The position numbers and the translations under genes are program-made. DNA of 64,000 nt from Pseudomonas nitroreducens TX1 (GTDB lineage Bacteria > Pseudomonadota > Gammaproteobacteria > Pseudomonadales > Pseudomonadaceae), in the NCBI RefSeq assembly GCF_000313755.1, contig NZ_AMZB01000121.1, positions 1 through 64,000 on the forward strand, in the 5' to 3' direction. Under the pieces are notes generated by a model. That model searched no databases. It saw only the letters and a program-made list of their open reading frames with translations, and was not told where the DNA came from. Positions 39,944 to 57,150 of this stretch are shown piece by piece (the first letter of the stretch is position 1; each line of letters opens with the position of its first letter).

Positions 39944-40843
39944 TCAGGAACGATTGTAGGTCGAGGCTATCCGGTCCCAACCAGAGAAATCGCCGGCATT
40001 CCCCTCGCGGATAAGCGTGTCCATCACTTCGATGCTGGCGGTGTCCTGGATGAACTCGATGACATCTCGTGATCCCTTCCAACGGCGGACCCCCACCGCA
40101 AAAATAGCTATGCGGCATCGCTCCAGAGCGGACGGGTCTTCATCATCGAGCCCCCTCTTAGGTGAAGGCTGATACGGCGCCTGGTGGGCGATGGGCGGTT
40201 TAGCATGCGAAATCGGGCTGTCCGGTGGTGAGCACGGCGCCGACGCAGGATGCTTGCTCAGCAGACCTTGTATGGCCACGTCAGAGAAGGTTGGATAGAG
40301 CAACTTGATCAGGCCCAGGCAGTAGAACTGGAGATGAAGTACATCGTCCTCTGACAGCCCTACTCTGATGTCCACCGGATCGGTTCCATCCTGACCGCAC
40401 TCCAAGGCGCTGATCATCTTTCTGAACTGCCCGTCCAATAGCGTGAAGCCCTTGAGGGTTTTGGGGGCTGAGCCTGCCCGGACGACCTCATAGTCACAGC
40501 GTGGTTGCTCGTCTGAGAGCCACCTGTATAGCTCCCGTACAGCACCTGGCCCGAGGTTCAGGCTCAGCTTCTCAGGGTCGTCGTTGAGGAGGTACTTCCC
40601 ACTATTCTTGTGCGTGAAGGTCAGACGTAGTGCCGAGTGGACTGCGGTGCATACGCCGGCGCTATTCACGTCATTGCGCACGTAAATCGCGCAGTTCAAA
40701 CCGTTGTTGCTAAACACCTGGTGTGCCGCCAGGTACTTCCCTTTGGCAGGCATATCCGGATTGGCTGGAGTGAAGCGAAATTCCCTGCCTGATCTCTTGG
40801 GTACCAGGTGCTCCGCGTGGATGCCCTTGAAGTCGATCAGCAT
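39944..40843 (-). CDS. conserved-looking protein of unknown function with a Pro-rich linker
   Basis: 299 residues. An N-terminal domain of about 200 residues, a Pro/Ser/Ala linker (residues 205-235), and a C-terminal domain of about 65 residues. The linker encodes Ser-His-Ala-Lys-Pro exactly where a 14-bp backbone palindrome lies at 40199, as also happens in parB. The ATG has a GAGG site. No family recognised. Confidence 0.65.
   Translation of the reverse strand: MLIDFKGIHAEHLVPKRSGREFRFTPANPDMPAKGKYLAAHQVFSNNGLNCAIYVRNDVNSAGVCTAVHSALRLTFTHKNSGKYLLNDDPEKLSLNLGPGAVRELYRWLSDEQPRCDYEVVRAGSAPKTLKGFTLLDGQFRKMISALECGQDGTDPVDIRVGLSEDDVLHLQFYCLGLIKLLYPTFSDVAIQGLLSKHPASAPCSPPDSPISHAKPPIAHQAPYQPSPKRGLDDEDPSALERCRIAIFAVGVRRWKGSRDVIEFIQDTASIEVMDTLIREGNAGDFSGWDRIASTYNRS
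40199..40212. promoter_or_regulatory. 14-bp palindrome TTTAGCATGCGAAA (site 2, intragenic)
   Basis: Inside the linker codons of the 299-residue protein. Same sequence and encoded Ser-His-Ala-Lys-Pro as site 5 within parB. Confidence 0.7.
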
Positions 40844-41118: not shown

Positions 41119-41493
41119 TTACCGCAGCAGCTGAACATTGGAGTCGAAGTCCCACAGTGAAGTGAGTACGTCGATCTTCTGGACGCCGCCCATGAAGGCT
41201 TCGAAAAAGGTGTCATCGGCGAAGAGAACCAGCACGTGGTTCCCCGGGTTTGCCATCTCATCCATAGGACTGAATGCGTAGTAGCCCATGCCAGGGAACT
41301 GCTGCTGCAGCTTCTGATTCCAGCCCTCGATGTGATCGCGAACGAGTTCAAGCGGCATGGAGTCTGGAAACATCAGCTTCGGCGCAGTATGGCGGGCTAC
41401 GTTGCCCTCAACCCCTCGGGGGAAATGACTCTCGAGAGTGAGACCTTTGAAGGATTTCAGCTGGTCAAAGGCTCTGTTCGATACACCGTTCAT
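41119..41493 (-). CDS. protein of unknown function (124 residues)
   Basis: A soluble protein of mixed composition with an aromatic-rich centre (PGMGYYAFSPMDEM) and an acidic C-terminal half. Preceded by a large leader hairpin. No family recognised. Position and spacing match the cassette-like layout of the 41-53 kb array. Confidence 0.6.
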   Translation of the reverse strand: MNGVSNRAFDQLKSFKGLTLESHFPRGVEGNVARHTAPKLMFPDSMPLELVRDHIEGWNQKLQQQFPGMGYYAFSPMDEMANPGNHVLVLFADDTFFEAFMGGVQKIDVLTSLWDFDSNVQLLR

Positions 41494-41519
41494 GATTCAC
41501 CTCTCGATTTCGGATTTGG

Positions 41520-41573
41520 GCGGGCGCCACCTCCAAACGCCCTCATTGAGGAGGCTTGGAGGTGACGCCCGCC
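41520..41573 (-). ncRNA. leader hairpin upstream of the 124-residue gene
   Basis: A long stem: GGCGGGCG and CCACCTCCAA pair with TTGGAGGTG and ACGCCCGCC around a 19-nt loop. It ends about 26 nt upstream of the start at 41493. Unlike the GC-repeat leaders in sequence but in the same position. Confidence 0.5.
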
Positions 41574-41595
41574 TTCCCCCGAAAGGGAAAGGCGG
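41569..41595 (-). terminator. UUCG-type hairpin after the 200-residue gene
   Basis: CCGCCTT-TCCC-TTTC-GGGGG-AAGGCGG on the minus strand, 14 nt after the stop at 41609. One of several 3' hairpins with a UUCG-like loop in this array. Confidence 0.5.
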
Positions 41596-41608
41596 TGTCA
41601 CTGCAGGC

Positions 41609-43077: not shown

Positions 43078-43097
43078 CGTGCGCTCCATAAGGGCGC

Positions 43098-43135
43098 ACC
43101 ACTCCCCTGACGGGGTGTGGTGAGCCCGTCAGGGG
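43098..43135 (-). ncRNA. leader with mutually exclusive hairpins
   Basis: Two exclusive pairings: CCCCTGACGGG (43104-43114) with CCCGTCAGGGG (43125-43135), or CACCAC (43098-43103) with GTGGTG (43117-43122). It lies 20 nt upstream of the preferred start at 43077. A switch-like leader is possible. Confidence 0.5.
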
Positions 43136-43152
43136 TGGGAGGGAGGTAGTTC

Positions 43153-44418
43153 TTAGAGGAACAGCGCGAAGTTCTGCGTCATGGAGTCTTTCGACTCTTC
43201 CTGCACAACAGGCGCGGAATCGACCTCGTCCGGGACCGAGGTTTCTTCCACTTCGTCAGTAGCCTGGGCCACCACGGCCGGAGCCAGGATGGTTTGAGCT
43301 ACAGCTGCTGCGGGAGCAGCAGTACCGGCCTGAACGGTGCTGACAGCCGAAGCTGCCGGCACAGTTGCCGCGGCCACCGGAGCGGTCGTGGCAGGCTGGT
43401 TCGAAGTTGCTTGTTGGGGTTGAACCGGGGAGGCCCCGGTGATCGCAAGAGCTTGCTGCGCGGCGTTACTTGCCGCAGGGGCGGTGGTCACCAGTACCAG
43501 TGCTTGGCCCTTCTTCAAGCGATCCCAAACAACGGTCTGGTCACGCATGGATTTCAGGCATTCGCACAGATTCTGGAACTCCACACCGGTGAGGACGCCA
43601 GTTGTCGGCACCTTGTCCAGTCCGCTTTTCAGGGCGTCATGGAGGGGCCGAATCAGCGGGTGAATGAAAGCCAGAGAATCCAGCTTCACGCACATCGCTT
43701 GAGCACGACGGACGGTGCGGGGGTTAACCTTCACCTCGCCCGAGTTGCTCCCAGCTTCCTTCGTTTCCAGGGTCTCCATAATTTCCTTGGATTCTTTGCA
43801 GACATGCTGAATGACTGCACCCAAGACCCCTTCCCGCAAAGCCACAACGCTGTCGCGCTGGGCTTCGTACAGTTCAGCATCGAACTCGCTGTCCTCCATC
43901 GTTACCGGAGTGACCACGAACGCGAATTTGAACCGTGCGGCTACCTCTTCCCAAGTCGGTTGGCGTTTACGCAGATGCTCCACCAGCAGATTTACCTGCG
44001 TCTGGTCGGCACCTTTGTTGATCGCCTTTTGGCTTTCATCGAGCAGGTGCTTGTCGCACATTGCCTGATAGCCAGGTTCATCTGCAGCGAGTTGCTGAGC
44101 CCACTCTTCCTGGATCTCTTTCAGCTGGCGAAGCTTGATAACCGCTTCGCTACGGCTCATCACGGCCCCAATGGGGCACAGGACAGAACCGTCTTGCTTC
44201 AGGATGGTCTCGCCGTTTTCACGGAGACGAGCGTAGTTACGGAGGAACTCCTTCGGAAAGATTTTCCCCGTTACCAGTTTGCGGATCTCATCGTGCAACT
44301 CTTCAACCTTGATGTTCAGCACATCGAAGTCGACCTGACGATCGGCTGCCATGGCGGAAACCAGGAGGTTGATCACTACAACTTTGTTGTCGCCTACAGC
44401 GTTGATTACTTGAGTCAT
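43153..44418 (-). CDS. DUF3150-family protein of the CobS/CobT module
   Basis: 421 residues. The N-terminal 300 residues are helical and match my recollection of DUF3150 proteins, which sit beside CobS- and CobT-like genes in phages and plasmids. The C-terminal 120 residues are an Ala/Pro/Thr-rich linker ending in an acidic segment and a short hydrophobic end (FALFL). ATG 44418 has a GAGGAAA site; an apparent N-terminal extension to 44544 is the structured leader read as protein and is rejected. Confidence 0.72.
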   Translation of the reverse strand: MTQVINAVGDNKVVVINLLVSAMAADRQVDFDVLNIKVEELHDEIRKLVTGKIFPKEFLRNYARLRENGETILKQDGSVLCPIGAVMSRSEAVIKLRQLKEIQEEWAQQLAADEPGYQAMCDKHLLDESQKAINKGADQTQVNLLVEHLRKRQPTWEEVAARFKFAFVVTPVTMEDSEFDAELYEAQRDSVVALREGVLGAVIQHVCKESKEIMETLETKEAGSNSGEVKVNPRTVRRAQAMCVKLDSLAFIHPLIRPLHDALKSGLDKVPTTGVLTGVEFQNLCECLKSMRDQTVVWDRLKKGQALVLVTTAPAASNAAQQALAITGASPVQPQQATSNQPATTAPVAAATVPAASAVSTVQAGTAAPAAAVAQTILAPAVVAQATDEVEETSVPDEVDSAPVVQEESKDSMTQNFALFL

Positions 44419-44419
44419 G

Positions 44420-44549
44420 GTATTTCCTCGCACCCGCCGCGCACCGGGGCAATGTTTTGAACACCCGGGCGCGGAGCCGGGTGGTTTGAGATCAATGACC
44501 TCGAGCAACCACCCGGCATGAGCCGGATGGTTGGTCCAGCTCACTGAGC
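44420..44549 (-). ncRNA. structured leader A (upstream of DUF3150 gene)
   Basis: A full copy of the array leader: from 5' on the minus strand, hairpin ending CCGGGTGGTT, a spacer with CTCGAGGTCAT, hairpin CCACCCGG-loop-CCGGGTGT, and a third hairpin CCCC-GGTGCGCGG-CGGG directly before the GAGGAAATACC ribosome binding site. Copies C and E share most of the sequence over about 130 bp. Confidence 0.75.
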
Positions 44550-44557
44550 AAGGTTTT

Positions 44558-44571
44558 GCCCCCGAAGGGGC
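44558..44571 (-). terminator. UUCG hairpin after the 90-residue gene
   Basis: GCCCC-TTCG-GGGGC on the minus strand, immediately after the stop at 44573. Stable tetraloop; no U tract. Confidence 0.5.
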
Positions 44572-44572
44572 G

Positions 44573-44845
44573 TTACAGCAGACGCAGAATCGTGCCTTCT
44601 CCCAGTGGTGTACGTTGGGAGTAGCCGTACTCTGTTTTGTCCAGCACGTAGGAGTGGGTCTGACGCATCCAGACGAAGCTCAGGATGAGGGCGTTGCCTT
44701 CCTCCCGAAATCGCAGGTCGCGTGCAAACGTCCCGACCTCGTCGATGTATCCCTGGAGCTCAGCTTGGGTAAGCCGAACACCAGTGGATTCCCGGCGAAA
44801 GTGAAGAACGCTGTCTACTGACTGCCCATTGACTTGAGTTTCCAT
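44573..44845 (-). CDS. small protein of unknown function (90 residues)
   Basis: Starts at ATG 44845 with a GGGAGGG site. A soluble alpha/beta protein containing LTQAELQGYIDEV and a beta-rich end. It lies between the CobT-like and DUF3150 genes with its own leader and 3' hairpin. No family recognised. Confidence 0.58.
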   Translation of the reverse strand: METQVNGQSVDSVLHFRRESTGVRLTQAELQGYIDEVGTFARDLRFREEGNALILSFVWMRQTHSYVLDKTEYGYSQRTPLGEGTILRLL

Positions 44846-44913
44846 TGAATTGCCCTCCCCCGCCGCGCACGGGGTATTCATGAGAACACCCGGGCGCGGA
44901 GCCGGATGGGTTC
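44846..44913 (-). ncRNA. structured leader B (partial copy, upstream of 90-residue gene)
   Basis: Keeps the SD-proximal hairpin CCCC-GTGCGCGG-CGGGG and the neighbouring CCGG-CTCCGCGC-CCGGGTG arm; the rest of the 130-bp element is missing. Confidence 0.65.
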
Positions 44914-44934
44914 CGGCCGTAGCGGGGAGAAGAA

Positions 44935-44950
44935 CCGCCCCGAAGGGCGG
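44935..44950 (-). terminator. UUCG hairpin after the CobT-like gene
   Basis: CCGCCC-TTCG-GGGCGG, 10 nt after the stop at 44960. Same loop type as other 3' hairpins here. Confidence 0.55.
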
Positions 44951-44959
44951 CTTCGATGG

Positions 44960-46951
44960 TTACATCAACAGCTGTTTGGCTTGCTCCAGCAGAGCTGGGC
45001 CAACGTCATCAGCGGTCGCTGCTTGGGCGAACGGAATACCTTCCTGCGCCAGCCAGTCCGTGCGGACGTGCTGACCAATGAGGAGGTACACCACCTTGAT
45101 GCCAGCTTCGACTGCAGAAGCGGTCTGCTGGACAGCAAGTTCTACACACGAGGGTGCGCCATCGGTGAGGACGAACATCAGTTTCCTCTGTGCCGGATGA
45201 GCAGCCAGGCGTTGAGCAGCTTGGAAAACAGCTTCGCCGATGGGGGTGTGATTCCCGCCGGTGATGCTGTCGAGACCGCCTATACGTTCCACCGCAGTCT
45301 GGTGCGAGTCCCCGAAGGTACGCACCAGGGTATTGAGGTGGCCAGTTTTTGGAGCGAACCCCAGAAACTCACGGGGCGTGTTGATACGTTCGAAAACCTT
45401 CTCCATTACCAGCATGGACTGCTGGATGGACTTGGCCACAGTGAGTACCTCGAACTGTTTCTCATCAATCGCCACTCCGGCTTTAAGAGCCTCAGACTTC
45501 TCTTTGGCTTTGGCCAGGAGCAGTGCCTCGTCAACATAGTTCGTTGAGCTCGACAGATCTCCGAGTACGGAAACAGCGGCAGTAGGAAGGATCGCCTCTT
45601 CTTTACGTTCAAAGATTCGACCATCCCCCATTCCTGCACGGTAGAGGTGCGACTGTCCGAGTGTTCCGCGGCGCGCCGAGTAGACGTCCGCTTCCTCTCG
45701 GTTCAACAGGTAGGCCTGCAGCTTCGTGGCCAGCACGTTGACCTTGCGGTCGAGTGCATCAGCCAGTTCGCGAGCACGGTCCTTGTTGGAGGGACAAACC
45801 AGCATCCCCTCAACCAGGCCCTGTACCTTTCCTGCCCCAAGTGAGGGCTTGAACTCCACGTCACCAGGCTCGACCTCGAAGGCCGGGACCGGAACAGCAT
45901 CCTTGTAGTCCGGGTTGGTCCCGTTCTGAATGCTGGCCGCGAGTTGTTGGAGAACTTTTCCCATGTCCATGACTTCGGAGTCATCCCCGCCATCGCTGCT
46001 GAGCATCTGCTCAATCAGTTCAGCCAGGTCGACGCTGTTTTTCCCCTGGCCTTGGCCCTGGGAGTCATCGGACGTGTTTTCTGCATCGCCATCATTGCTA
46101 CCCTGACTTCCGGATTTACCGTCGTCAGGTTCCTGATCGTCATCTTGGCTCTGGCCTTGACCAGCATCTTGATTCTGATCTTCTTCCTCATCGCCCTCCC
46201 CTTCTCCTTCCGGATCAGGTTGAGCGTCCTGGTCTTCCCCCTCGTTTTCCTCCGACTGTTCGTCTTCAGGCTCGTCTTGGGGTTGATCATCCTGCTGGTC
46301 ACGCTGCTGCTTCAGCATCTCAATGAGCCGAAGGGTGAGAAGCCCGGCGTCCTCAGTGGAGCGAACGTTCGGGTACTCAGCCAACAGAATGGTTTCCAGG
46401 TTTTCGCGAATCTGATCGGCGTGCTCACCGAAGTGGGCATCAAAGTTTTCCCTGATCAGCTCTACAGCTGGCAGGTACTCGCTCCACCGGCGACTGCGAA
46501 GGAAGCACAGGGTGTAGCTTGCGAAGGCTTCTTGGGGGCTTTGGCTACCGTCACGGAAGATCTGACGATCAATCATGATCGCCGCTCCACGACGGAAGTA
46601 GTGCTCAGAACGGCGCGAAGCAACCGTCTGCGCATACTCCATGTACACGTCGTCTACCGCATTCAACAGCATGCCCGCGAACGGACCATGCTCTGCGTTG
46701 AATTGCTGGTAGTACGGGACATTGCTGTGCATGCAATGCCCTACTTCGTGATAGCCCGTACGTTTGAACAGGGTGAGGTCGTCGTCAGTCAGCTTTGCCG
46801 GCAGAGCAGGCAGGTAGACAGTCTTTCCGTCCGTTCGTGGTGCTTCATTTGGACGTACAACGAATTTGAGCCCTGAATTTCTGGCCAGTACACGGAGGAA
46901 CGAAATCCAACCGTCCTGGAACTTTTGTGTGGCGCGTTGCAACTTGCTCAT
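44960..46951 (-). CDS. CobT-like VWA-domain protein with HExxH motif
   Basis: 663 residues. The N-terminal region has GYHEVGHCMHS (HExxH) near residue 68, the centre (about 225-320) is a long Asp/Glu/Gln/Ser-rich tract, and the C-terminal third is a VWA domain: SVLGDLSSSTNYVDEA gives the MIDAS DxSxS and FVLTDGAPS its second Asp. This is the layout of the CobT subunit and of CobT-like phage/plasmid proteins. No cobalamin gene is nearby, so a role as substrate adaptor for the CobS-like AAA+ ATPase is more likely than cobalt chelation. Starts 2 nt after the preceding gene. Confidence 0.83.
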   Translation of the reverse strand: MSKLQRATQKFQDGWISFLRVLARNSGLKFVVRPNEAPRTDGKTVYLPALPAKLTDDDLTLFKRTGYHEVGHCMHSNVPYYQQFNAEHGPFAGMLLNAVDDVYMEYAQTVASRRSEHYFRRGAAIMIDRQIFRDGSQSPQEAFASYTLCFLRSRRWSEYLPAVELIRENFDAHFGEHADQIRENLETILLAEYPNVRSTEDAGLLTLRLIEMLKQQRDQQDDQPQDEPEDEQSEENEGEDQDAQPDPEGEGEGDEEEDQNQDAGQGQSQDDDQEPDDGKSGSQGSNDGDAENTSDDSQGQGQGKNSVDLAELIEQMLSSDGGDDSEVMDMGKVLQQLAASIQNGTNPDYKDAVPVPAFEVEPGDVEFKPSLGAGKVQGLVEGMLVCPSNKDRARELADALDRKVNVLATKLQAYLLNREEADVYSARRGTLGQSHLYRAGMGDGRIFERKEEAILPTAAVSVLGDLSSSTNYVDEALLLAKAKEKSEALKAGVAIDEKQFEVLTVAKSIQQSMLVMEKVFERINTPREFLGFAPKTGHLNTLVRTFGDSHQTAVERIGGLDSITGGNHTPIGEAVFQAAQRLAAHPAQRKLMFVLTDGAPSCVELAVQQTASAVEAGIKVVYLLIGQHVRTDWLAQEGIPFAQAATADDVGPALLEQAKQLLM

Positions 46952-46953
46952 GA

Positions 46954-47169
46954 TCAGACTCCCTTCCGGATCGCATGGGCTTTCAGGGTGTGCTCCTCGG
47001 CTTTCCCACGCAGGTCACGGAGATCCTGAGTGGGCACTTCGAAGCGGGTGTAGATCACTTGGTCTGCAACGTGCGCTGCCCATTTCAGGTACACGCGGGC
47101 GGCAACCCGGTGGTACTTGATCAGGACTTTGTTTTTGGCTGCATTGATTGCTTTCTGGAACATATTCAT
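46954..47169 (-). CDS. small basic protein upstream of the CobT-like gene
   Basis: 71 residues from ATG 47169, preceded by GAGGGAATACCC. Lys/Arg-rich helices (AINAAKNKVLIKYHRVAARVY). It runs 2 nt into the CobT-like gene, so they are co-translated; leader C precedes it. No family recognised. Confidence 0.58.
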   Translation of the reverse strand: MNMFQKAINAAKNKVLIKYHRVAARVYLKWAAHVADQVIYTRFEVPTQDLRDLRGKAEEHTLKAHAIRKGV

Positions 47170-47170
47170 G

Positions 47171-47302
47171 GGTATTCCCTCGCTCCCGCCGCGCACGGGG
47201 CATTTGAAAAACACCCGGGCGCGGAGCCGGGTGTGTGTGAGATCGATGACCTCGAGCAAACACCCGGCTTGTGAGCCGGATGTTTGGTCCAGCTCACTGA
47301 GC
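47171..47302 (-). ncRNA. structured leader C (upstream of 71-residue gene and CobT-like gene)
   Basis: Full copy with hairpins CATCCGG-loop-CCGGGTG, ACACCCGG-CTCCGCGC-CCGGGTGT and CCCC-GTGCGCGG-CGGG before GAGGGAATA. The middle hairpin has an 8-nt loop and 8-bp stem. Confidence 0.75.
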
Positions 47303-47307
47303 GGTGG

Positions 47308-47329
47308 TGACTACCCCGAAGGGCAGTCA
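47308..47329 (-). terminator. UUCG hairpin after the 86-residue gene
   Basis: TGACTGCCC-TTCG-GGGTAGTCA, 8 nt after the stop at 47338. The stem is complete over 9 bp with one mismatch. Confidence 0.55.
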
Positions 47330-47337
47330 CCTTGGGA

Positions 47338-47598
47338 TCAGCAGGATTTCCCGCGGATCAAATCGGCTTCCAGGTCATGACGCAGAACCTGGTGACGATG
47401 ACTCCAGAACTGCTCCTTGCTCCGCACGTGGATCGCGGGGCTATGGCGCTGTTCATTGGCGCGAGCCAACACCTTCTTGGCAAGCCTTTTGGCCTTGCGG
47501 CCGTGGAGCTTGCTCATCAAGCGGTGATACGCATGGAGCACGTAGCCAATCCAGAACATGTCCAGAGCAGCATCAGCTTTTGCGAAAGCAGCTTTCAT
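47338..47598 (-). CDS. small basic protein of unknown function (86 residues)
   Basis: A Lys/Arg/His-rich helical protein (LMSKLHGRKAKRLAKKVLAR). GAGAGG site before the ATG at 47598; leader D precedes it. Resembles the 71-residue neighbour in basic helical character, so nucleic-acid binding is possible. No family recognised. Confidence 0.55.
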   Translation of the reverse strand: MKAAFAKADAALDMFWIGYVLHAYHRLMSKLHGRKAKRLAKKVLARANEQRHSPAIHVRSKEQFWSHRHQVLRHDLEADLIRGKSC

Positions 47599-47600
47599 AT

Positions 47601-47710
47601 GAATTACCTCTCACCCGCCGCGCACGGGAAATGAAGAAATTAAGCCCGGGCGCGGTGCCGGGCTTGTTGGTACAAACCCAGCTAAGCCGGATCAGATCCA
47701 GCTCTAGTGG
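47601..47710 (-). ncRNA. structured leader D with compensatory changes
   Basis: Diverged copy. The middle hairpin reads AAGCCCGG-CACCGCGC-CCGGGCTT where other copies read ACACCCGG-loop-CCGGGTGT: both arms changed together, preserving pairing. The SD-proximal hairpin CCCG-TGCGCGG-CGGG is intact. Confidence 0.72.
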
Positions 47711-47713
47711 AGG

Positions 47714-47733
47714 GATAGGCCGAATGGCCTGTC
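47714..47733 (-). terminator. hairpin after the 273-residue gene
   Basis: GACAGGCC-ATTC-GGCCTATC directly after the stop at 47734. Confidence 0.5.
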
Positions 47734-48555
47734 TTATAGGAACAGGGACATTCCGAGGTCGATCACCGTCTCGACTTTCATCTTGACGGGACCGAGCAGG
47801 TCGGCATTTTCGAGCGCCTTCAGAACCTGCGGCGATCCCCGGTACCAGTCCATCTCTTCGATGTCCTGGCGTTGGAAAGGTCGCATTGGGTCCAGGGTGT
47901 ACTCAGCATCACTCTCAACCTCGAATTCCGCTCCAGCTTTCTTGAGTTCGGCAAGAAAAGCCCGAACACAGACATCCAGAACAGTCTCCTCGGTTTTGAG
48001 TCTCCACAGCCCCTTCCCGCACGGAAGCAGTATTGAACTGTCGATGAAGCCTCGCTCCTCGAAAATCTCGCGCGCCTTCGGGGACATGGTTGCCCACTCC
48101 TGTTCAGACGCGATGCCTATGCGAATGGCTGTCCCATTGAAGGCGACTTCCACTGCATTCCCTGCCATCCGGAAGCCCAGGGGAAATCCCGCATCGATCA
48201 GCACCCGAACAACCTCCTCCAGCTGGGCAAGCCCACTGTTGAATTGGCTGGTCGTGCAACCTTTGACGCGGGCGTATAGCCCCCGGTGCTTAAGAGCGAA
48301 CTCCATGACTACTGCGTTAGCCAGGTTGAGCTTCAGTTGGGAAGTCTCAATCGGTTGAGGCGAATAGCCATTGCTGCGAGCTTCGGTGACTTGGGCACAT
48401 ACGTGATCCCAGGCCTCATCTGCTGAACTGCATTGGAGCTCTTTCTTTCCGGACACACCATGACCGACGTTCCCCTCCCACACTGTCATGAGGAAGGAGT
48501 TGACGTCGGCCTGGACTGCTTTGAATCGACCGGCTTCGTTGGTCAGGTAGTACAT
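47734..48555 (-). CDS. protein of unknown function with a WGR-like N-terminus, coupled to the CobS-like gene
   Basis: 273 residues. Residues 1-65 resemble a WGR domain: a short strand, VWEGNVGHGVSGKKELQ, then a helix and NGYSPQ. The remaining 200 residues show no family match. The start is 12 nt after the CobS-like stop, so it belongs to the same transcript. WGR domains bind nucleic acid in other proteins; here the assignment is tentative. Confidence 0.6.
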   Translation of the reverse strand: MYYLTNEAGRFKAVQADVNSFLMTVWEGNVGHGVSGKKELQCSSADEAWDHVCAQVTEARSNGYSPQPIETSQLKLNLANAVVMEFALKHRGLYARVKGCTTSQFNSGLAQLEEVVRVLIDAGFPLGFRMAGNAVEVAFNGTAIRIGIASEQEWATMSPKAREIFEERGFIDSSILLPCGKGLWRLKTEETVLDVCVRAFLAELKKAGAEFEVESDAEYTLDPMRPFQRQDIEEMDWYRGSPQVLKALENADLLGPVKMKVETVIDLGMSLFL

Positions 48556-48567
48556 CTTCTGACCCCC

Positions 48568-49686
48568 TTAGGCCGCCTGAGTAGCAGGCTTAACTGCCGA
48601 CTTGATCGCATCCAGTTGATCCGCCACCGAAGTGGTGTACTCCTCTGGAAGCTCAAGCTGGCGACCGAACGTTTCCTCAAAGAGCTCAACAGCAAGCTGC
48701 TGGTCTGCTTCCTCAAGGTTGGCGTAGATCGCGTCAGTGAACGACTCGTGCAGGTCCCCATAGATCGCAAGCTTGTTGACCCAGCGCTTCAGCTCCCGGA
48801 AGGAGATGTTGTCAAACGCCTCCTCTTGCGAGAACGCAACGCGGAACCGGAATGCGAACTCGACCATCATTTGGATGGAGAGATCATCAACGCTGGTGTT
48901 CAGACCGCGCAGTGCTGCCATCTCCTTCTCCGCCGACATGAAGTTGGCTTTGAACGAGGTGAAGCGGCTGCGAACAGCGGCGTTCTGTCCCTTTGTGCCG
49001 GCGTACCGGGGATCACGAGAGGACTTGCCACCAGTGTTGTCGGTTGCGAACAACCGGAACGACGGGTGACGAACGATGTTCATCCCACCTTCGAGGCCAA
49101 GCAGATGCTTGGGGTCCAGTTCAGGGTCAATCCCATGGTGCTTCAGCGTCACGACCTCATCACCTTGGAGGATGTCGTTCAGACTGAGCAGCACGCCGGG
49201 ATTCAAGCTGCAGATTTCGTCGATGGTGCAGCTCAGGCCATGCCGGTAGGCATAGCTCAGAACTCCATCAACGCTCTTCACACCGTCCTTCCCGAGGGTA
49301 CGGAACCCTACGAGATAACCTTCGTCTACGCCGGGACCGGCGTTGATTGCGATCGAAGGACGGTTCAGTCGCCCATTGATCTGGTTGATGAGGGAGGACT
49401 TACCGGTCCCCTTCTCACCCACCAGCATGATGGAGTCCTTAGTTGCGATGCTCAGGAGAATCCGGCGAACCAGGCTCTCGTTGAACACGTAACTGCTGTC
49501 GATGCTCGGCGCGAGCGGATGACGCTCTGCCGGTACCGGAATTGGCTTCTCGAAGCCCTTGAGGGGCTTATTGAAACCGAACAGCTCGTGGACCATGACC
49601 GACTCAAATTTCTGGCTAGTAACAGCCTTGATGTGAGCCTCTTTGATCTCTGCGACGGTGATGTTTTTGTTGGTTACGTTGGTCAT
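48568..49686 (-). CDS. CobS-like MoxR-type AAA+ ATPase
   Basis: 372 residues. Walker A GEKGTGKSSL near residue 94, Walker B SCTIDEICSLN, and a sensor-1 like FRLFATDNT place it in the CobS/MoxR AAA+ group. It pairs with the VWA protein at 44960, as CobS pairs with CobT. With DUF3150 and no vitamin B12 genes, it is probably a chaperone or remodelling ATPase. ATG 49686 with a GAGGAAA site; an in-frame extension to 49815 is leader sequence. Confidence 0.85.
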   Translation of the reverse strand: MTNVTNKNITVAEIKEAHIKAVTSQKFESVMVHELFGFNKPLKGFEKPIPVPAERHPLAPSIDSSYVFNESLVRRILLSIATKDSIMLVGEKGTGKSSLINQINGRLNRPSIAINAGPGVDEGYLVGFRTLGKDGVKSVDGVLSYAYRHGLSCTIDEICSLNPGVLLSLNDILQGDEVVTLKHHGIDPELDPKHLLGLEGGMNIVRHPSFRLFATDNTGGKSSRDPRYAGTKGQNAAVRSRFTSFKANFMSAEKEMAALRGLNTSVDDLSIQMMVEFAFRFRVAFSQEEAFDNISFRELKRWVNKLAIYGDLHESFTDAIYANLEEADQQLAVELFEETFGRQLELPEEYTTSVADQLDAIKSAVKPATQAA

Positions 49687-49689
49687 TTG

Positions 49690-49821
49690 TGTTTCCTCGC
49701 ACCCGCCGCGCACGGGGCAATATTTGATGACACCCGGGCGCGGAGCCGGGTGTGTTTGAGATCGATGACCTCGAGCAAACACCCGGCAATGAGCCGGATG
49801 TTTGGTCCAGCTCACTGAGCA
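49690..49821 (-). ncRNA. structured leader E (upstream of CobS-like gene)
   Basis: Full copy nearly identical to leaders A and C in the arms, the spacer with CTCGAGGTCATCGATCTC, and the SD-proximal CCCCGTGCGCGGCGGG. Confidence 0.75.
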
Positions 49822-49826
49822 AGGAA

Positions 49827-49842
49827 GGCCCCTTTCAGGGCC
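49827..49842 (-). terminator. hairpin after the 144-residue gene
   Basis: GGCCC-TGAAAG-GGGCC, 5 nt after the stop at 49848. Confidence 0.45.
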
Positions 49843-49847
49843 AGGAT

Positions 49848-50282
49848 TTAGACAGCTACACGCATGTGCATGGGGACCGAGTCCGGGTCGAAGAACCCGA
49901 AGATCATCATCCGCTCACACAGCTGCTCTTCCGACACTCCAGCTCGCCGAGCGAGCTGGGTTACCGTCAGGCTGCAATCGATCTGCAGGTTATTCAGAAC
50001 GGCCCAGAAGGACCGCTCAGGAAGCACTTGCACCTCAATGGTCGGCAGGAAGCCGATCATCTCGATTTTCTCAACCACACCTTCAGATTTCTGGTCGGTG
50101 ACTGATCCATGCACAAACCCCTTCTTCCACTCATCGTGGTTGACGGTGTCTGGTTCCTCTGGGTTGTCCCCTAAGGTCATCCCGCGGAGCGCAGCCAGGC
50201 GGCCTTGCTCCCACGTAGTACCGAAGTAGATCCCATCGATAACCATGAGCAGTTCACTGTCTTCGTATTGGCGATGTTTCAT
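49848..50282 (-). CDS. protein of unknown function with a possible helix-turn-helix
   Basis: 144 residues from ATG 50282 with a GGAG site. Residues 105-127 (SLTVTQLARRAGVSEEQLCERM) read as a helix-turn-helix. The N-terminal half is acidic. It may regulate the CobS/CobT array (inference). No family recognised. Confidence 0.6.
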   Translation of the reverse strand: MKHRQYEDSELLMVIDGIYFGTTWEQGRLAALRGMTLGDNPEEPDTVNHDEWKKGFVHGSVTDQKSEGVVEKIEMIGFLPTIEVQVLPERSFWAVLNNLQIDCSLTVTQLARRAGVSEEQLCERMMIFGFFDPDSVPMHMRVAV

Positions 50283-50350
50283 TGCAAAGCTCCTACCCGC
50301 TGCAGCCGGGAGATTGAATTGAGAACTCCCGCCTGCAGGTCGGGAGGTGC
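50283..50350 (-). ncRNA. structured leader F (diverged copy)
   Basis: Two hairpins in the same layout: CTCCCG-ACCTGCAGG-CGGGAG and CCCGG-CTGCAG-CGGG before GGAGC. The loop and stem sequences differ from leaders A-E but the order and SD proximity match; it resembles leader G. Confidence 0.6.
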
Positions 50351-50359
50351 CGACCTGGC

Positions 50360-50533
50360 TTAGCCTGGTTGGTCTTCGTACCGGCGGGCGATGTCGGACC
50401 AGTTGCCTGGTTCCTTCGCTACCAGCCACCCCATGCACCAAGCCCTGCCCTCTTGGGACATGACTGGATATGGGTTTTGCTGACTGGTAATACCGGCTTG
50501 AAAAGCTTCTTTGCCTTCTTGAAACGCCTTCAT
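50360..50533 (-). CDS. RMF/CrpP-like small protein
   Basis: 57 residues. The pattern EGKEAFQAGITSQQNPYP followed by RAWCMGW matches the Gly-X3-Tyr/Phe-X-Ala-Gly, Asn/Cys-Pro-Tyr and Trp-X2-Gly-Trp spacing of ribosome modulation factor and the related CrpP proteins of Pseudomonas plasmids. A ribosome-linked or CrpP-like role is inferred from this pattern only. Its ATG overlaps the stop of the upstream 107-residue gene (ATGA), so the two are co-translated. Confidence 0.6.
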   Translation of the reverse strand: MKAFQEGKEAFQAGITSQQNPYPVMSQEGRAWCMGWLVAKEPGNWSDIARRYEDQPG

Positions 50534-50853
50534 TTCTGCTCTCCGCCTGAACCCGTTTGCCGGGCCGGCTCACCGATGTGCTTCATCTCCACATGACTGG
50601 CCGCAAGGGCCAGGTCCAACGCAAACCTCGTTACGAGGAATGCGATACCCAGAGGGGTATGGAGAAGGATCGGTTTGAGCAAGTTTCTTATGATGTTCGT
50701 GGTGCTCAGCACGCGGTCAGCCATACGAACCGACCAATACAGCGCCGGAACTATTGCTTTGGGTGCAGGCACATCTCCACCGCATCTAACAAATAGAGCG
50801 AACCCTATCGAGAGTCTTAGGTTGGAAACGAACTTCGGTTTATTTTTCTTCAT
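50530..50853 (-). CDS. small membrane-associated protein (107 residues)
   Basis: From ATG 50853 with an AAGG site. A basic N-terminus and weakly hydrophobic stretches (LGIAFLVTRFALDLALAA) suggest membrane association. Coupled to the RMF-like gene by ATGA. No family recognised. Confidence 0.5.
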   Translation of the reverse strand: MKKNKPKFVSNLRLSIGFALFVRCGGDVPAPKAIVPALYWSVRMADRVLSTTNIIRNLLKPILLHTPLGIAFLVTRFALDLALAASHVEMKHIGEPARQTGSGGEQK

Positions 50854-50961
50854 GGTGTTCACCTTTGAGTTGTTTGTTAGGACATAGATTTCTCCTGTGC
50901 TAACCCCGAAGGTGATTCTTCCCCTAGGGGAGTTCACACCCCCAGGGTTATCCATGGAAAG

Positions 50962-51084
50962 TTACATCGTGCTGCTTCGTGTTCCGCCCACGTGTTCTCC
51001 GGCATGCCGGCGTTCAACGTAGTCACAGACCCAGTAAATGGCGAATGCCAACACCAGTATTCCGATCGTCACACTGAAAGACAT
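50962..51084 (-). CDS. 40-residue single-span membrane protein
   Basis: Begins MSFSVTIGILVLAFAIYW, one membrane helix, followed by a charged tail with several Arg and His. A GAGGAT site precedes the ATG. Supported by the start context and helix only. Confidence 0.45.
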   Translation of the reverse strand: MSFSVTIGILVLAFAIYWVCDYVERRHAGEHVGGTRSSTM

Positions 51085-51136
51085 AGTCGCATCCTCGCGA
51101 TAGGGAAAAAGAGTTTCTTTCGAACCTCATATCACC

Positions 51137-51382
51137 TTAAGGGCTGCGTGCACGTTTCTTAGCTCGACGCGATTTTCGTTTTACCGTGCGCGTCGGCGTC
51201 TGTTTCGGACGCTTCTTTCGACCCTGAACCGTTGAGTTCAACGTAATGAGTGCAGTCATCAGTATGGAAACCATAAAGACTATGCGGAGTTCATTAGTAG
51301 ACCATCCTACGAACAGAGAAGAGGCAGAAGCACCCATGATGGACGCGATGATCACGACCATCAGGTTTTTGATATAGCTCAT
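51137..51382 (-). CDS. 81-residue two-span membrane protein with basic tail
   Basis: Two hydrophobic helices (about residues 5-25 and 33-51) and a C-terminal tail of about 25 residues rich in Lys and Arg. A weak GGAGG site lies near the ATG. Function unknown. Confidence 0.5.
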   Translation of the reverse strand: MSYIKNLMVVIIASIMGASASSLFVGWSTNELRIVFMVSILMTALITLNSTVQGRKKRPKQTPTRTVKRKSRRAKKRARSP

Positions 51383-51464
51383 TTTGCCTCCAAAGTTCCG
51401 CCGTCGCGTGTTGGGTTAAAACACGTCCAGGGCGTCCCGCCGGAAGTGTTGAACTTCCGGCCCG

Positions 51465-51488
51465 GGAGGGCTGGAAAATTAGCCCTCC
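51465..51488 (-). terminator. hairpin overlapping the 165-residue gene stop
   Basis: GGAGGGCT-AATTTTCC-AGCCCTCC, 8-bp perfect stem that includes the stop codon at 51479-51481. Confidence 0.55.
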
Positions 51489-51976
51489 GGTTGGAGGAAA
51501 AGCGGCGGTTGATCGTCGAAGCCCAGGGAGAAATCGAGTGCCCCTTGCTTACGCAGTTCGACTCGTTCTTTGACTCGTGCTTCTAAACGACATTTGATTT
51601 CGTCTCGAAGATCCTCGTGTTTCCACATAGGCATCGAACGGGACCAGGAGCCAAGATAATGCGCACCGTGAAACTCACTCCGAATCCTCGGAGAGAGCAG
51701 CCTGTGCGTCAGTACCTGCTTGTTTGAGCCCCAAACCACATTTACGCCTTCTTCCCCATCGGAACTGATGATCAGCTCGGAGGAGTTGGCGATGAATTTC
51801 AGACGCTCGTGGTGGGATAGATTCGAATACTCCTCAGCGAGCAAGGAGCCCTCGGCCAGATAGTTCTGCATGAGGAAGTTGCCAATCTTGCGACTGGCCA
51901 GATCTTCAGCTTCCTTGGTCTGACGTATACCTACTGCACGTTGAGCGTAGCGCTCCATTCGATAAGACTCACGCAT
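51479..51976 (-). CDS. protein of unknown function (165 residues)
   Basis: From ATG 51976 with a strong GAGGAGG site; an earlier ATG at 52006 is less likely. Mixed composition with a charged C-terminal helix (EIKCRLEARVKERVELRKQ). A nested hairpin lies in the upstream gap. No family recognised. Confidence 0.6.
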   Translation of the reverse strand: MRESYRMERYAQRAVGIRQTKEAEDLASRKIGNFLMQNYLAEGSLLAEEYSNLSHHERLKFIANSSELIISSDGEEGVNVVWGSNKQVLTHRLLSPRIRSEFHGAHYLGSWSRSMPMWKHEDLRDEIKCRLEARVKERVELRKQGALDFSLGFDDQPPLFLQPEG

Positions 51977-52041
51977 GTAGCCTCCTCGAGGGCGCACCAA
52001 CCCCATCGGGGCTGTTCCGCCCCACAGGGTTGATTTCTATT

Positions 52042-52992
52042 TCAGATTAGGTCTGCCAATGTCAGACCATTCTTGACGCTGTATCCAGACAAACAGCCTT
52101 CGAGGCACACGTCCGCCATGTCGCACCGTTTGGATTGACTTTCGCAGGGTGAGTCGTAGGCCATATGGGGGGCTCTGAAGAACTCTCCAGCACGCAGCCG
52201 TTTGGCTACAACGCGGGCGAAGTCGAGGGCCTCCTCTATGTCAGCTGCCGTCCGCTTCACCCAGGTAACCGGGTGCCAGATGGCGTTTACAACTTGTTCG
52301 GAGTCCGGCTTCGAGATATTCGGCTTCCGCCCTGAGGCAAAGCCGCATAGCTTCGGTTCCTTGATTCCCAACTGAGCACAAGCCAGTTTCACGGCAAGCC
52401 AGTAGTAGGTCAGCTGCAGCGAGTAGCGTGCAAACATCTTCCCTTCTGGTTGTGCCGCGGTTTTCCAGTCCAGGATCACCACGTCGCCTACATCAGCCAA
52501 CATCTTCCCGCTAGGGTCGAAGATAGGCCTGGTGCATTCACCGACGAAGTCGATTACTAGCTTGATGAAGACTCGGTCAGCGATTTTCATCCTGAACTCC
52601 CCTTCGATAATCAGAGGCTTGAGCCCAAGATTACGGAAGTAAGCAGGAAAGCCTGATGCCAATTGTTTACCGATCACCTCAGCCGTTTCCCGAGACTTTG
52701 ATTTAGCCATGCTGATGAGCTTGCCCGACGATGACTCGTCAAACTTGCTCATGAACGAATTAGCCATTTCATCGTCCGAGATATACCCCTTAATGAAACC
52801 CTCAATCACCCAGTGCAAGGCAGTGCCAAACAGCAGGTTAAGTGGAGTCGCTTGGGGGGTTACACGAGCTCGGTAGTATCCCAACAGTCGTGTGCAAACC
52901 ATGGCTTTCATGATTTGCGTAGGAGACAGCGTTATTTCTTCAGATTCCGGGACCGGATTGAAGATGTAGTGAGGATTCACGAACGAAGTCAT
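52042..52992 (-). CDS. Cas4/RecB-like PD-(D/E)XK nuclease with Fe-S cysteines
   Basis: 316 residues. LSPTQIMKAMVCTRLLGYYR near residue 22 gives the first Cys, and the C-terminal CESQSKRCDMADVC gives three more, the 4Fe-4S pattern of Cas4 and AddB nucleases. VILDWKTA near residue 173 supplies the catalytic Asp and Lys; YSLQLTYYWLAV is the QxxxY motif. No CRISPR genes are present, so this is probably a plasmid or phage-type exonuclease for DNA processing. Confidence 0.82.
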   Translation of the reverse strand: MTSFVNPHYIFNPVPESEEITLSPTQIMKAMVCTRLLGYYRARVTPQATPLNLLFGTALHWVIEGFIKGYISDDEMANSFMSKFDESSSGKLISMAKSKSRETAEVIGKQLASGFPAYFRNLGLKPLIIEGEFRMKIADRVFIKLVIDFVGECTRPIFDPSGKMLADVGDVVILDWKTAAQPEGKMFARYSLQLTYYWLAVKLACAQLGIKEPKLCGFASGRKPNISKPDSEQVVNAIWHPVTWVKRTAADIEEALDFARVVAKRLRAGEFFRAPHMAYDSPCESQSKRCDMADVCLEGCLSGYSVKNGLTLADLI

Positions 52993-53061
52993 GTAATCAC
53001 CTTTTCAGGCGCACACGACTACCCGAGGGCAACGTGTCGCCCTCGTGGGTTCTTGAATGGA

Positions 53062-53202
53062 TTAGAAGTCTACGACTTCAGGTTCCTTTTCAGGTTGGTC
53101 ATCTTCTCCCTTGAGAAAACGCTCGCGCGCTTTTTCGAGGGCTTCTCCTTCTGGTTGTTCCCACAAGGAAGGTGCGTTGAGAAGTTCAACTTGGCCTGAC
53201 AT
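53062..53202 (-). CDS. 46-residue acidic protein
   Basis: From ATG 53202 with a perfect GGAGGAAATACC context, identical to the DUF3150 gene's. Glu/Asp-rich C-terminal half (LKGEDDQPEKEPEVVDF). It precedes the Cas4-like gene and may be its partner. Preceded by leader G. Confidence 0.6.
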   Translation of the reverse strand: MSGQVELLNAPSLWEQPEGEALEKARERFLKGEDDQPEKEPEVVDF

Positions 53203-53265
53203 GGTATTTCCTCCTATATCCCCGCTGCACCGGGAATAAGCTCACGAAGAGTTCCCGTGCAGGGG
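53203..53265 (-). ncRNA. structured leader G (upstream of 46-residue gene)
   Basis: CCCCTGCAC-GGGAA ... TTCCC-GGTGCAG-CGGGG forms a long interrupted stem immediately before GGAGG. Resembles leader F. Confidence 0.6.
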
Positions 53266-53686
53266 TAAGCGCTAGCGCTGGAGGTGTGCCTTGAAATGGG
53301 TCGCGTGAGAACACACTGACCTATATGGCGGTGAGATACACGTTCCTGGTGACACATCTACCCAGCTGAGTTCAGCAAGGGACGTGCCTGGTATCTCGAG
53401 GATGTGGACAGGTCAGAAGACCGTCCGATTTGTTCCAACGATGTCTGTGCTCACCGGACTCGAGTTCGAGTTTCGATTAGCACCCCGGAAAACCTCAGTG
53501 AGTTCACTGACGTAGTCTGGGTTTGCTCTTTCAAAGAGAAAGGCAATTAGGACGCCACATTTTTATCTGACCCCCTCCCCTCTCGTCAAGTGATCTTGAT
53601 GAATTCGATTCCACCGCTCCTATCTCAGTTTCGCATGCAAAAAAAACCCCAGACCAGCAAAACGCTGGACTGGGGTTCTTGTGCGC
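53266..53686. other. 421-bp intergenic region with promoter and palindrome site 3
   Basis: No gene is supported. On the minus strand a sigma70-like promoter TTGACG-16 nt-GATAAA lies at 53589-53562, pointing to the 46-residue gene. Site 3 of the GCATGC palindrome (TTTCGCATGCAAAA, one mismatch) is at 53629-53642, just upstream of that promoter, so a bound protein could control it. Confidence 0.5.
53641..53680 (-). terminator. rho-independent terminator of the Toprim gene
   Basis: AACCCCAGTCCAGC-GTTTT-GCTGGTCTGGGGTT followed by TTTTT on the minus strand, 7 nt after the stop at 53687. Strong stem and U tract. Confidence 0.9.
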
Positions 53687-56016: not shown

Positions 56017-57150
56017 TCAGTTGGTCTCGGCCATCGCTGCTACGCTGACGATCTCAATCTGATCTACCTTAACCAGCTTCTGCTGTTGGCTTCCACCGAC
56101 CAGCAATACGGTCCAGGCTTTGGAGGGATCATCGTGGACGCGATCGTTGGCCAGATATCCATTTACGATCGTGTCGTCCAAGGCCACGCGGATTCCAATT
56201 ACCTGCCGGTCCGCGGTGATGGGGGTATACCCCTTCCCGTTTGCCTTTTTGGCAGCTGCAGGGGCCGGAGCTGCTTGAGCCCCATTTATCGGCTGGCTTT
56301 GGGGCGCTTGTGGTGGCTGATGACCGCTGCCATTGACCGGCACATCTTTCCCTGCCGGTTTAGCATGCGAAACCGGGACTTGATCGGGAGACGCAGGCGG
56401 AGGTGGGGGAACTTCCGCCCCCTTCCCTGCCTCTTTACCACCTACTGGCTTACCCTTCGCTAGCCGAACGGCATCACGCACCAATTGACGGCTGATCGAT
56501 CCTTCCGCATTAGCTTTTTCGATGAAAGCGTTGAAGGTCTCCGGCTGGAGAGTCTTCAACTGCTTCATTTCGCGCAATACCTCCGGGTCCGAAGTAATCC
56601 CAAACTTGATGAGGTCAACCAGCTCCCCTGGCAGATCCGCAAAGCCCAAATGGATCGATACATAGGACTCGCTTCGGCCGAGATATTTGGCGATGGCCTG
56701 GTTGCTCAAATGCTCACCCGCTGCCTTTGCTTCTGCTTTAGCGTCAGCAATTGCACGGCCCATCTCGTAAGGATTCAGACCTTGGCGCTGATCGTTTTCG
56801 ATAACTTGGGCGAGAATGCCCTTGGCCTTCGAACGTTGCTTTGCATCGACGATTGCCTTTAGTTTGAAGCCCGGACGAAGCACCGCAGCAGCGTAGCGCC
56901 GGCCACCCATTTTTAGTGGGTACTTTCCAGTGTTTGGGTCTTTGGGCCCAACAATGATCGCTGTTTGCTGCCCTTCTTCGTCAAAGCTAGCAGCGAGTTC
57001 CTCAATGTCTTTGAAGTCCTTTCGGACCTGAGGTTTGACCTCAATCTGGTCAACGGTCAGCAGAATGACCTGATTTTCTTGCGAGGCATCAGCGAGATCG
57101 GTGAGATCCTTCAACCGCTGCAGGCTCGACATATCAAGGCTTTTGACCAT
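56017..57150 (-). CDS. parB: ParB/KorB-like centromere-binding protein
   Basis: 377 residues. The N-terminal ParB domain has EVKPQVRKDFKDIEELAASF and GGRRYAAAVL (ParB GERRxRA box variant) and NDQRQGLNPYEMG. A helix-turn-helix follows (SNQAIAKYLGRSESYVSIHLG). A Pro/Ala-rich linker of about 80 residues leads to a C-terminal beta domain (VRVALDDTIVNG...), an arrangement like KorB. Its start overlaps the parA stop by one base (TAATG). It is the best candidate to bind the recurrent TTTMGCATGCKAAA sites. Confidence 0.87.
   Translation of the reverse strand: MVKSLDMSSLQRLKDLTDLADASQENQVILLTVDQIEVKPQVRKDFKDIEELAASFDEEGQQTAIIVGPKDPNTGKYPLKMGGRRYAAAVLRPGFKLKAIVDAKQRSKAKGILAQVIENDQRQGLNPYEMGRAIADAKAEAKAAGEHLSNQAIAKYLGRSESYVSIHLGFADLPGELVDLIKFGITSDPEVLREMKQLKTLQPETFNAFIEKANAEGSISRQLVRDAVRLAKGKPVGGKEAGKGAEVPPPPPASPDQVPVSHAKPAGKDVPVNGSGHQPPQAPQSQPINGAQAAPAPAAAKKANGKGYTPITADRQVIGIRVALDDTIVNGYLANDRVHDDPSKAWTVLLVGGSQQQKLVKVDQIEIVSVAAMAETN
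56359..56372. promoter_or_regulatory. 14-bp palindrome TTTAGCATGCGAAA (site 5, inside parB)
   Basis: Within the linker codons of parB, encoding Ser-His-Ala-Lys-Pro. Same as site 2. Confidence 0.7.

Follow-up and report, generated by a model that had tools for sequence, protein, structure and literature searches.

The 64-kb stretch of Pseudomonas nitroreducens TX1 analysed here (the window) carries on its minus strand a set of structured leaders (A-H) before the start codons of several genes. Five of these, A-E, group as one structured-RNA family by repeat search and covariance model, as had been predicted from the sequence, and judged by comparison with their relatives they are probably cis-acting RNA switches of translation initiation in a conserved megaplasmid operon, with F and G sharing their core. 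The comparison supports two predicted hairpins (P2 and P3) whose loops would pair in a kissing helix (K) beside the Shine-Dalgarno (SD) sequence, competing helices (Pa and Pb) on the same strands and a 5′ strand complementary to the SD (anti-SD strand). The structured-RNA family is real and, as far as has been searched, undescribed, with a translation switch being its most likely function. If this is true, they would add a new class to the known cis-regulatory RNAs, carried by a family of megaplasmids that occurs in many Pseudomonas species; unusually, sequence comparison here backs a kissing helix and mutually exclusive switch helices together.

Leaders were searched for in two ways. The first was a covariance model, R1, for which 30 leaders from the window and seven further loci were used; the second was a kissing-hairpin scan that ignores the letters and requires a pair of hairpins, complementary in their loops, ahead of an SD and start codon. 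The leaders of the window are:

44416..44555, minus strand: leader A, full-length, upstream of the DUF3150 gene (start 44418); R1 140.9 bits and scan
44843..44952, minus strand: leader B, core P2-K-P3 only, before a 90-aa gene (start 44845); R1 51.4 bits and scan
47167..47308, minus strand: leader C, upstream of a 71-aa gene (start 47169), after which comes the CobT-like VWA gene; R1 137.4 bits and scan
47596..47717, minus strand: leader D, upstream of an 86-aa gene (start 47598); R1 85.4 bits and scan
49684..49826, minus strand: leader E, upstream of the CobS-like AAA ATPase gene (start 49686); R1 146.6 bits and scan
50283..50346, minus strand: leader F, same core with loops CUGCAG:CUGCAG, before a 144-aa gene (start 50282); scan
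53203..53270, minus strand: leader G, same core with loops CUGCAC:GUGCAG, before the gene at 53202
43090..43136, minus strand: leader H (leader region 43090-43152), before a 259-aa gene (start 43089), with a loop CACCAC that can pair with GUGGUG

Leaders A, C and E, for which a shared block of about 130 bp had been claimed, align almost end to end over about 140 nt. The 15-nt core expected throughout A-E is exact in B-E and carries one mismatch in A, with one further exact occurrence in the host genome on contig C81. The upstream half of B differs from that of the other members, while in D the P2 pairing is kept by compensatory change (AAGCCCGG/CCGGGCUU), in keeping with the predicted replacement of ACACCCGG/CCGGGTGT by AAGCCCGG/CCGGGCTT. 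The claim that F and G keep only the layout proved too cautious, since both also keep P2, P3 and the loop pairing, and the relatives of F retain the core with a compensatory P2. The GUGGUG strand of H can alternatively enter a predicted hairpin holding the SD, and UAGUG in locus L012 and ACGUGG in locus L071, at the relatives of H, look compensatory by eye. The loop-loop helix, the anti-SD strand and the strand-exchange design go beyond the original prediction, and leader H lies outside its range.

From 5′ to 3′ a full leader comprises the anti-SD strand, arm 0 (GUGAGCUGGA), arm 1 (AUCCGGCUCA), arm 2 (GCCGGGUGUUU), a small inner hairpin, arm 3 (ACACCCGG), the CCGCGC loop, arm 4 (CCGGGUGU), an A/U-rich linker, P3 (CCCG, loop UGCGCGG, CGGG), the SD and the ATG, with 11-16 nt (median 14) between the end of P3 and the ATG. 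Arm 3 pairs with arm 4 to form P2 and with arm 2 to form Pb, while arm 1 pairs with arm 2 to form Px and with arm 0 to form Pa; Pb is mutually exclusive with both P2 and Px, and Pa with Px. Helix K joins the P2 loop to the P3 loop as CCGCGC:GCGCGG, elsewhere as CCGUGC:GCACGG, CCGCCA:UGGCGG and more. In leader E these elements are placed as follows:

49819..49826, minus strand: anti-SD strand UUCCUUGC (P0), with its partner GCGAGGAA at the SD; 8-bp duplex, -12.2 kcal/mol
49777..49801, minus strand: arms 1 and 2 (AUCCGGC / GCCGGGUGUUU), forming Px, supported by covariation and pair counts; rivals are Pa, in which arm 1 pairs with GUGAGCUGGA, and Pb, in which arms 2 and 3 pair
49730..49753, minus strand: hairpin P2 (arms 3 ACACCCGG and 4 CCGGGUGU around a loop containing CCGCGC), supported by covariation
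49702..49717, minus strand: hairpin P3 (CCCG/CGGG, loop UGCGCGG) adjoining the SD, supported by covariation
49706..49743, minus strand: helix K, P2 loop CCGCGC (49738-49743) with P3 loop GCGCGG (49706-49711)

Covariation, pairing and access to the Shine-Dalgarno sequence

Because several loci are near-identical plasmids, the leader set was cut to 53 sequences of <93% identity. These were aligned by MAFFT on sequence only and covariation was measured against 200 null alignments in which each column's own changes were scattered on a FastTree tree, an implementation of the R-scape idea of our own rather than R-scape itself. Nine of 9,316 column pairs reached E ≤1 and six of these lie within proposed helices, namely 112-146 and 113-145 in K, 98-122, 99-121 and 102-118 in P2, and 141-151 in P3. 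The K pair 112-146 is paired in all 53 leaders (CG 30, GC 14, UA 9) and scored above every value in the 200 null alignments; for P3 141-151 this alignment shows pairing in only 28 of 53. Further covariation was found at P2 103-117 and P3 139-153. Tested as named pairs, the helices have best p values of 4e-5 for P2, 1e-4 for P3, 3e-4 for Pa and 4e-4 for Pb. The test that had been proposed, a covariance model taken to related megaplasmids, was passed, with covarying pairs found under an R-scape-like null. In an earlier run on 30 sequences three pairs fell below E 0.5, K 102-135, P2 89-111 and the unpaired 103-131.

Among the nine pairs, 63-120 (GG 42, AA 9) links arm 2 with arm 4, which do not pair with each other and are rivals for arm 3, a signature that would be expected of strand exchange. 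In keeping with this, arms 2, 3 and 4 change together, columns 63/100/120 reading GCG in 42, AUA in 6 and ACA in 3 of the 53 leaders. The alternative pairings suggested in the original prediction are borne out to this extent, Pb and P2 both being kept with co-changing arms.

A second, counting test used an alignment of 89 hits (A5), with 70 distinct rows and 500 shuffles. Even though it was fitted to the other fold, the helices Px/P2/P3/K were 92.2% paired with 185 double-change cells against 51.4 in shuffles (0/500) and 7-45 when slid, and Pa/Pb/K/P0 were 92.1% paired with 178 such cells against 45.6 (0/500); slid versions of both folds were 33-47% paired. Arm 3 was paired in 97.9% of cells with arm 4 (P2) and in 98.9% with arm 2 (Pb), with 89.0% for P3. 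In the first alignment both folds agree with the counting test except in one measure of five. G-U cells exceed A-C cells in Pb (53 v 4), Px (61 v 11), Pa (45 v 18) and P2 (15 v 3), which points to RNA of this strand.

The stability of the leader folds is not due to chance, the mean z-score of the minimum free energy (MFE) being -5.45 over the 53 leaders and the least extreme -1.4. Pairing of the 5′ strand with the SD averaged -6.78 kcal/mol in the 51 leaders having that strand, compared with -5.53 (standard deviation 0.23) when permuted (0/5000). In the nested ensemble the probability of the SD being unpaired was 0.16 versus 0.27 with the upstream letters shuffled, being lower in 41 of 53 leaders (p 1.6e-6), and removal of the anti-SD strand raised the mean to 0.38, with leader B unchanged at 0.01.

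Distribution, operon and re-lettered copies

R1 gave 12 matches at E ≤10 in the whole host genome, of which five were convincing (9.6e-45 to 3.7e-13) and all in the window; the remaining seven had E 0.06 or worse, three of them opposite-strand matches to the same repeats. The interval 44400-50300 has a 100% match in a P. nitroreducens plasmid; of 133 plasmid records with some match to it, 131 are from Pseudomonas. In eight related plasmids R1 found 5, 5, 5, 8, 8, 9, 10 and 11 matches (E ≤1), a total of 61, of which 56 fall within the same operon (11 of these being opposite-strand echoes) and five outside (best E 2.5e-10), with every match below 1e-10 inside the operon; this agrees with the earlier view that the element is not a mobile repeat. 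Leaders are also present in Halopseudomonas (L012), an Oceanospirillaceae metagenome-assembled genome (MAG; L063) and the plasmid pQBR103 (L070). Among 25 genomes of the genus and 398 of the family sampled, convincing copies occurred only in the strain's own genome, two others having one weak match each. Weak matches in L054 (E 2.1e-4) and L055 (E 6.8e-4), which by eye lie in a cold-shock-gene area and an aconitase-like gene respectively, were taken as chance. A distant-mode search of a phage collection gave no match to the element, and viral contigs searched with the ATPase profile held no relative.

At E 1e-13 there were 89 hits in 20 loci, all ending in ATG, which is less telling than it seems because the R1 model includes the start codon. 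More informative are the 58 strong hits in annotated loci, 54 of which end at an annotated start, in line with the predicted cis-acting RNA before start codons; the other four, mutually orthologous, precede a small open reading frame that either lacks an annotation or has one displaced by 12 nt.

The operon encodes an AAA ATPase (CobS-like), a VWA protein (CobT-like), a DUF3150 protein and small proteins with no family match in Pfam, PHROGs or NCBIfam. The CobS/CobT label given to it earlier is a loose one: the ATPase scores 86.7 bits against TIGR01650, far below the cut-off of 558.55, while the VWA protein just passes that of CobT_C (22.4 versus 21). Other AAA-VWA operons, on pCP7-41 (L126) and in Kosakonia (L127) and Erythrobacter (L128, model E 0.25), had no leader by model or scan, two of them including DUF3150, nor was one found by either means in L064-L067 (Nitrospirae/Nitrospirales MAGs and Dethiosulfatibacter), with a model match of only E 0.04 in L064. 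The basic 71-aa and 86-aa proteins (46954-47169 and 47338-47598) share 31% identity and both have family leaders, which would suit a joint duplication of gene and leader. In a Stutzerimonas plasmid (L009, 10604-13146) leader B has the IS21-family element ISPpu23 on its upstream side and is missing the 5′ P2 arm that is present in L010.

On the minus strand of the window the kissing-hairpin scan returned exactly A-F; 10 dinucleotide shuffles of the strand together gave one hit. On the plus strand it returned three hits, the mirror images of A, C and E. When the SD/start condition was dropped there were 8 and 7 hits versus 1-8 in shuffles; with the contrast lost, what distinguishes the leaders is their position before starts. 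The scan undercounts because K helices with a bulge are missed, and leader G, built to the same plan, was not caught (its first stem is 3 bp). For plasmids and chromosome an open-frame condition was added. With it contig C121 gave eight hits (A-F, one mirror image and one with 4-bp stems) and pQBR57 seven, all on the plus strand, while a chromosomal control of 300 kb of contig C136, both strands, gave four with four different loop letter sets and stems of 4+4 three times and 7+4 once. Across 28 loci there were 61 hits, 58 of them in 18 of 19 operon loci and all on the operon strand, the other three being in L073 and L122; there were none in L062, L064-L067 and L126-L128.

Some leaders carry other letters. 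On pQBR57 (L076, 4690-6325) four leaders with K UAGAGCA:UGCUCUA precede starts near 4748, 5237, 5891 and 6325, the third of which has no gene in the annotation table; this second cluster of pQBR57 is near a DNA cytosine methyltransferase gene. The same loop pair occurs once each on pJBCL41 and a P. brassicacearum plasmid and is absent from the other 8 of 11 plasmids. In the G leaders CUGCAC:GUGCAG is kept while, by eye, the P3 stem is rewritten (UUCCCG/CGGGGA, AUCCUUG/CAAGGAU, AUUCCUG/CAGGGAU, ACCCAUGA/UCAUGGGU and AUCCCCA/UGGGGAU). Such re-lettered copies are natural mutate-and-compensate experiments.

Two other features were seen in the window. At 41494-41608 (minus strand), 5′ of the gene at 41493, lies a very long, near-perfect hairpin of about 20 bp (MFE -77 kcal/mol with flanks), and hairpins of similar size with changed letters occupy the corresponding place in L009, L012, L017, L018, L071 and L072. 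A 22-bp pair, 95% identical, lies 16 kb apart at 40196-40217 and 56356-56377.

A proposed two-state switch and its alternatives

The RNA would have two states. In the first, Pa, Pb and a long hairpin containing K would be closed by pairing of the anti-SD strand with the SD, which would be masked; in the second, arm 3 would exchange arm 2 for arm 4, and P2 and P3 would form and kiss, changing access to the SD. Masking by the anti-SD strand would, at a guess, be the OFF state. A common trigger, whether a protein of the plasmid, a small molecule or the passage of ribosomes from the upstream gene, may act on all copies and the products would therefore be made in step. The leaders offer a direct handle on the control of a conserved, uncharacterised backbone operon, with pQBR57 and pQBR103 having an established laboratory host.

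Several observations weigh against such a switch. The two conformations would not be evenly matched, Pa+Pb+K lying 10.4 +/- 6.5 kcal/mol below Px+P2+P3 (nested, 53 leaders, kissing energy uncounted), and the second may thus be rare. A GC-rich kissing helix of six pairs could make up much of this gap, and while comparison indicates that both helix sets are retained, thermodynamics does not show both populated. Px is the weakest helix, with a best p of 4e-3 (1.6e-3 for its outer extension), and in the first alignment the further pair types of Px/P2/P3/K were not above shuffles (111/500). Of the covarying pairs, 113-145 of K pairs in only 36 of 53 leaders, and the second-highest of all, 113-142 (E 0.000), together with 113-141 (E 0.2), fits no proposed helix and may come from shifts in loop length. 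The 0 G-U versus 9 A-C cells of K run counter to the strand argument. As for the anti-SD strand, its permutation test leaves relatedness in, the P0 columns covary weakly, and removal of the strand raised SD exposure by more than 0.3 in no more than 18 of the 53 leaders, with a fall in leader C of the window (0.40 to 0.24).

An RNA operator is possible, though we would not favour it, and its odds overlap those of the switch. A plasmid protein would bind the kissing shape at the CCG:CGG contact and repress or activate all copies. The CCG:CGG pairs of K are near-constant (69, 70 and 69 of 70 distinct rows) while its other pairs drift, and the matches are concentrated in one operon with a few outside genes, both of which speak for such a site. 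Against a protein of the CsrA/RsmQ type stands the motif AnGGA, which occurs in only 3 of 53 leaders.

It is somewhat unlikely that the leaders are static elements, stable structures that fix the stability or processing (RNase E/III) of each mRNA segment and the level of translation of each cistron of a polycistronic mRNA. The folds are very stable, and in copies A-E of the window a GC hairpin lies 3′ of the stop codon of the upstream gene. Also in favour, a scan of the minus strand with the sigma-70 consensus only found no promoter-like site, and no convincing terminator was seen. The leaders themselves contain no hairpin with a convincing U-run, the only terminator-like site within them on this strand being P2 of D, with a weak tail (14 such sites in the whole stretch versus 9.4, standard deviation 3.1, in shuffles), and the transcription attenuation once suggested finds no support here. 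A static role leaves unexplained why both exclusive helices, Pb and P2, are kept with co-changing arms and why the 5′ strand fits the SD.

That the leaders form a small-molecule riboswitch of an undescribed class seems improbable. Guanidine-II and corrinoid riboswitches do use kissing hairpins near the SD (PMC7544219; PMC10653944), yet there is no Rfam match and the genes are without evident metabolic theme. A repeat acting at the level of DNA, as a protein binding site or recombination or replication element, might account for repeated palindromes in a plasmid and for a K helix without G-U excess, but is highly improbable given the G-U excess in Pa, Pb, Px and P2, the 54 of 58 strong hits ending at annotated starts and the rewriting of letters with pairing kept.

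The translation switch may be extended to several sets of leaders, although at present this is an unlikely and speculative proposal. The loop letters differ between sets, being CCGNNN in the AAA/VWA/DUF3150 operon, UAGAGCA:UGCUCUA in the second pQBR57 cluster and CUGCAG, CUGCAC and CACCAC at neighbouring genes. Rop recognises a kissing shape rather than its letters. In a multi-channel system of RNA control in Pseudomonas megaplasmids, the kissing leaders of each operon would have private loop letters and a plasmid-encoded factor, perhaps Rop-like, would throw the switches of each set together to give a multi-protein machine in fixed proportion.

Comparison with known systems

Rfam 15 gave no match in the window at gathering score, and at E ≤5 on 44000-53600 only four matches, all far below gathering scores and none credible. 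No description of such an element on plasmids or in Pseudomonas was found in the titles and abstract openings of the top-ranked papers covered, with most subscription papers and preprints outside that coverage, and term look-ups in PMC8544851, PMC9928087, PMC7070040 and PMC13391042 returned no passage on it.

Plasmid-encoded translational control is known from pQBR103, where the CsrA-type protein RsmQ is described as binding GGA/AnGGA, best in hairpin loops (PMC9928087). pQBR103 itself bears these leaders. Their conserved loops are, unlike RsmQ targets, CCGCGC/GCGCGG, and with AnGGA so rare the reading of the leaders as RsmQ targets was set aside; plain GGA is present in 51 of 53 leaders, at the SD in 18.

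The nearest designs are the guanidine-II riboswitch, the corrinoid riboswitch and the PyrR attenuator. The hallmark of guanidine-II is two hairpins with ACGR tetraloops, a combination found in 0 of 53 leaders, with one such hairpin in 1 of 53. In guanidine-II (mini-ykkC) two neighbouring hairpins are proposed to kiss through their loops, and the proposed mechanism includes an anti-SD/SD alternative (PMC7544219). The leaders likewise appear, from the scan layout and the covarying K, to have neighbouring hairpins that pair through their loops beside the SD. They differ in the loops of 7-8 nt in leader E, a variable K of about 6 bp, an upstream exchange domain and unrelated genes, and have no Rfam match.

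Corrinoid riboswitches carry a B12 box, GCCACUG, which is present in 0 of 53 leaders, and none was matched at E ≤5 in the region searched. In the corrinoid (cobalamin) riboswitch an L5-L13 kissing loop stabilises the stem that decides access to the ribosome-binding site, and in one studied case the functional kissing pairs are CCG:CGG (PMC10653944). The near-invariant K pairs here are also CCG:CGG, a likeness of three pairs that may be chance.

The PyrR consensus ARUCCAGAGAGGYU, as given in PMC7430163, occurs in 0 of 53 leaders. Alternative-pairing PyrR attenuators are repeated before several genes of the Bacillus subtilis pyr operon, three there (PMC7430163). Unlike PyrR sites, which use terminators, the leaders abut the SD; as in the pyr operon, alternative-pairing elements that resemble one another appear to be repeated within one operon.

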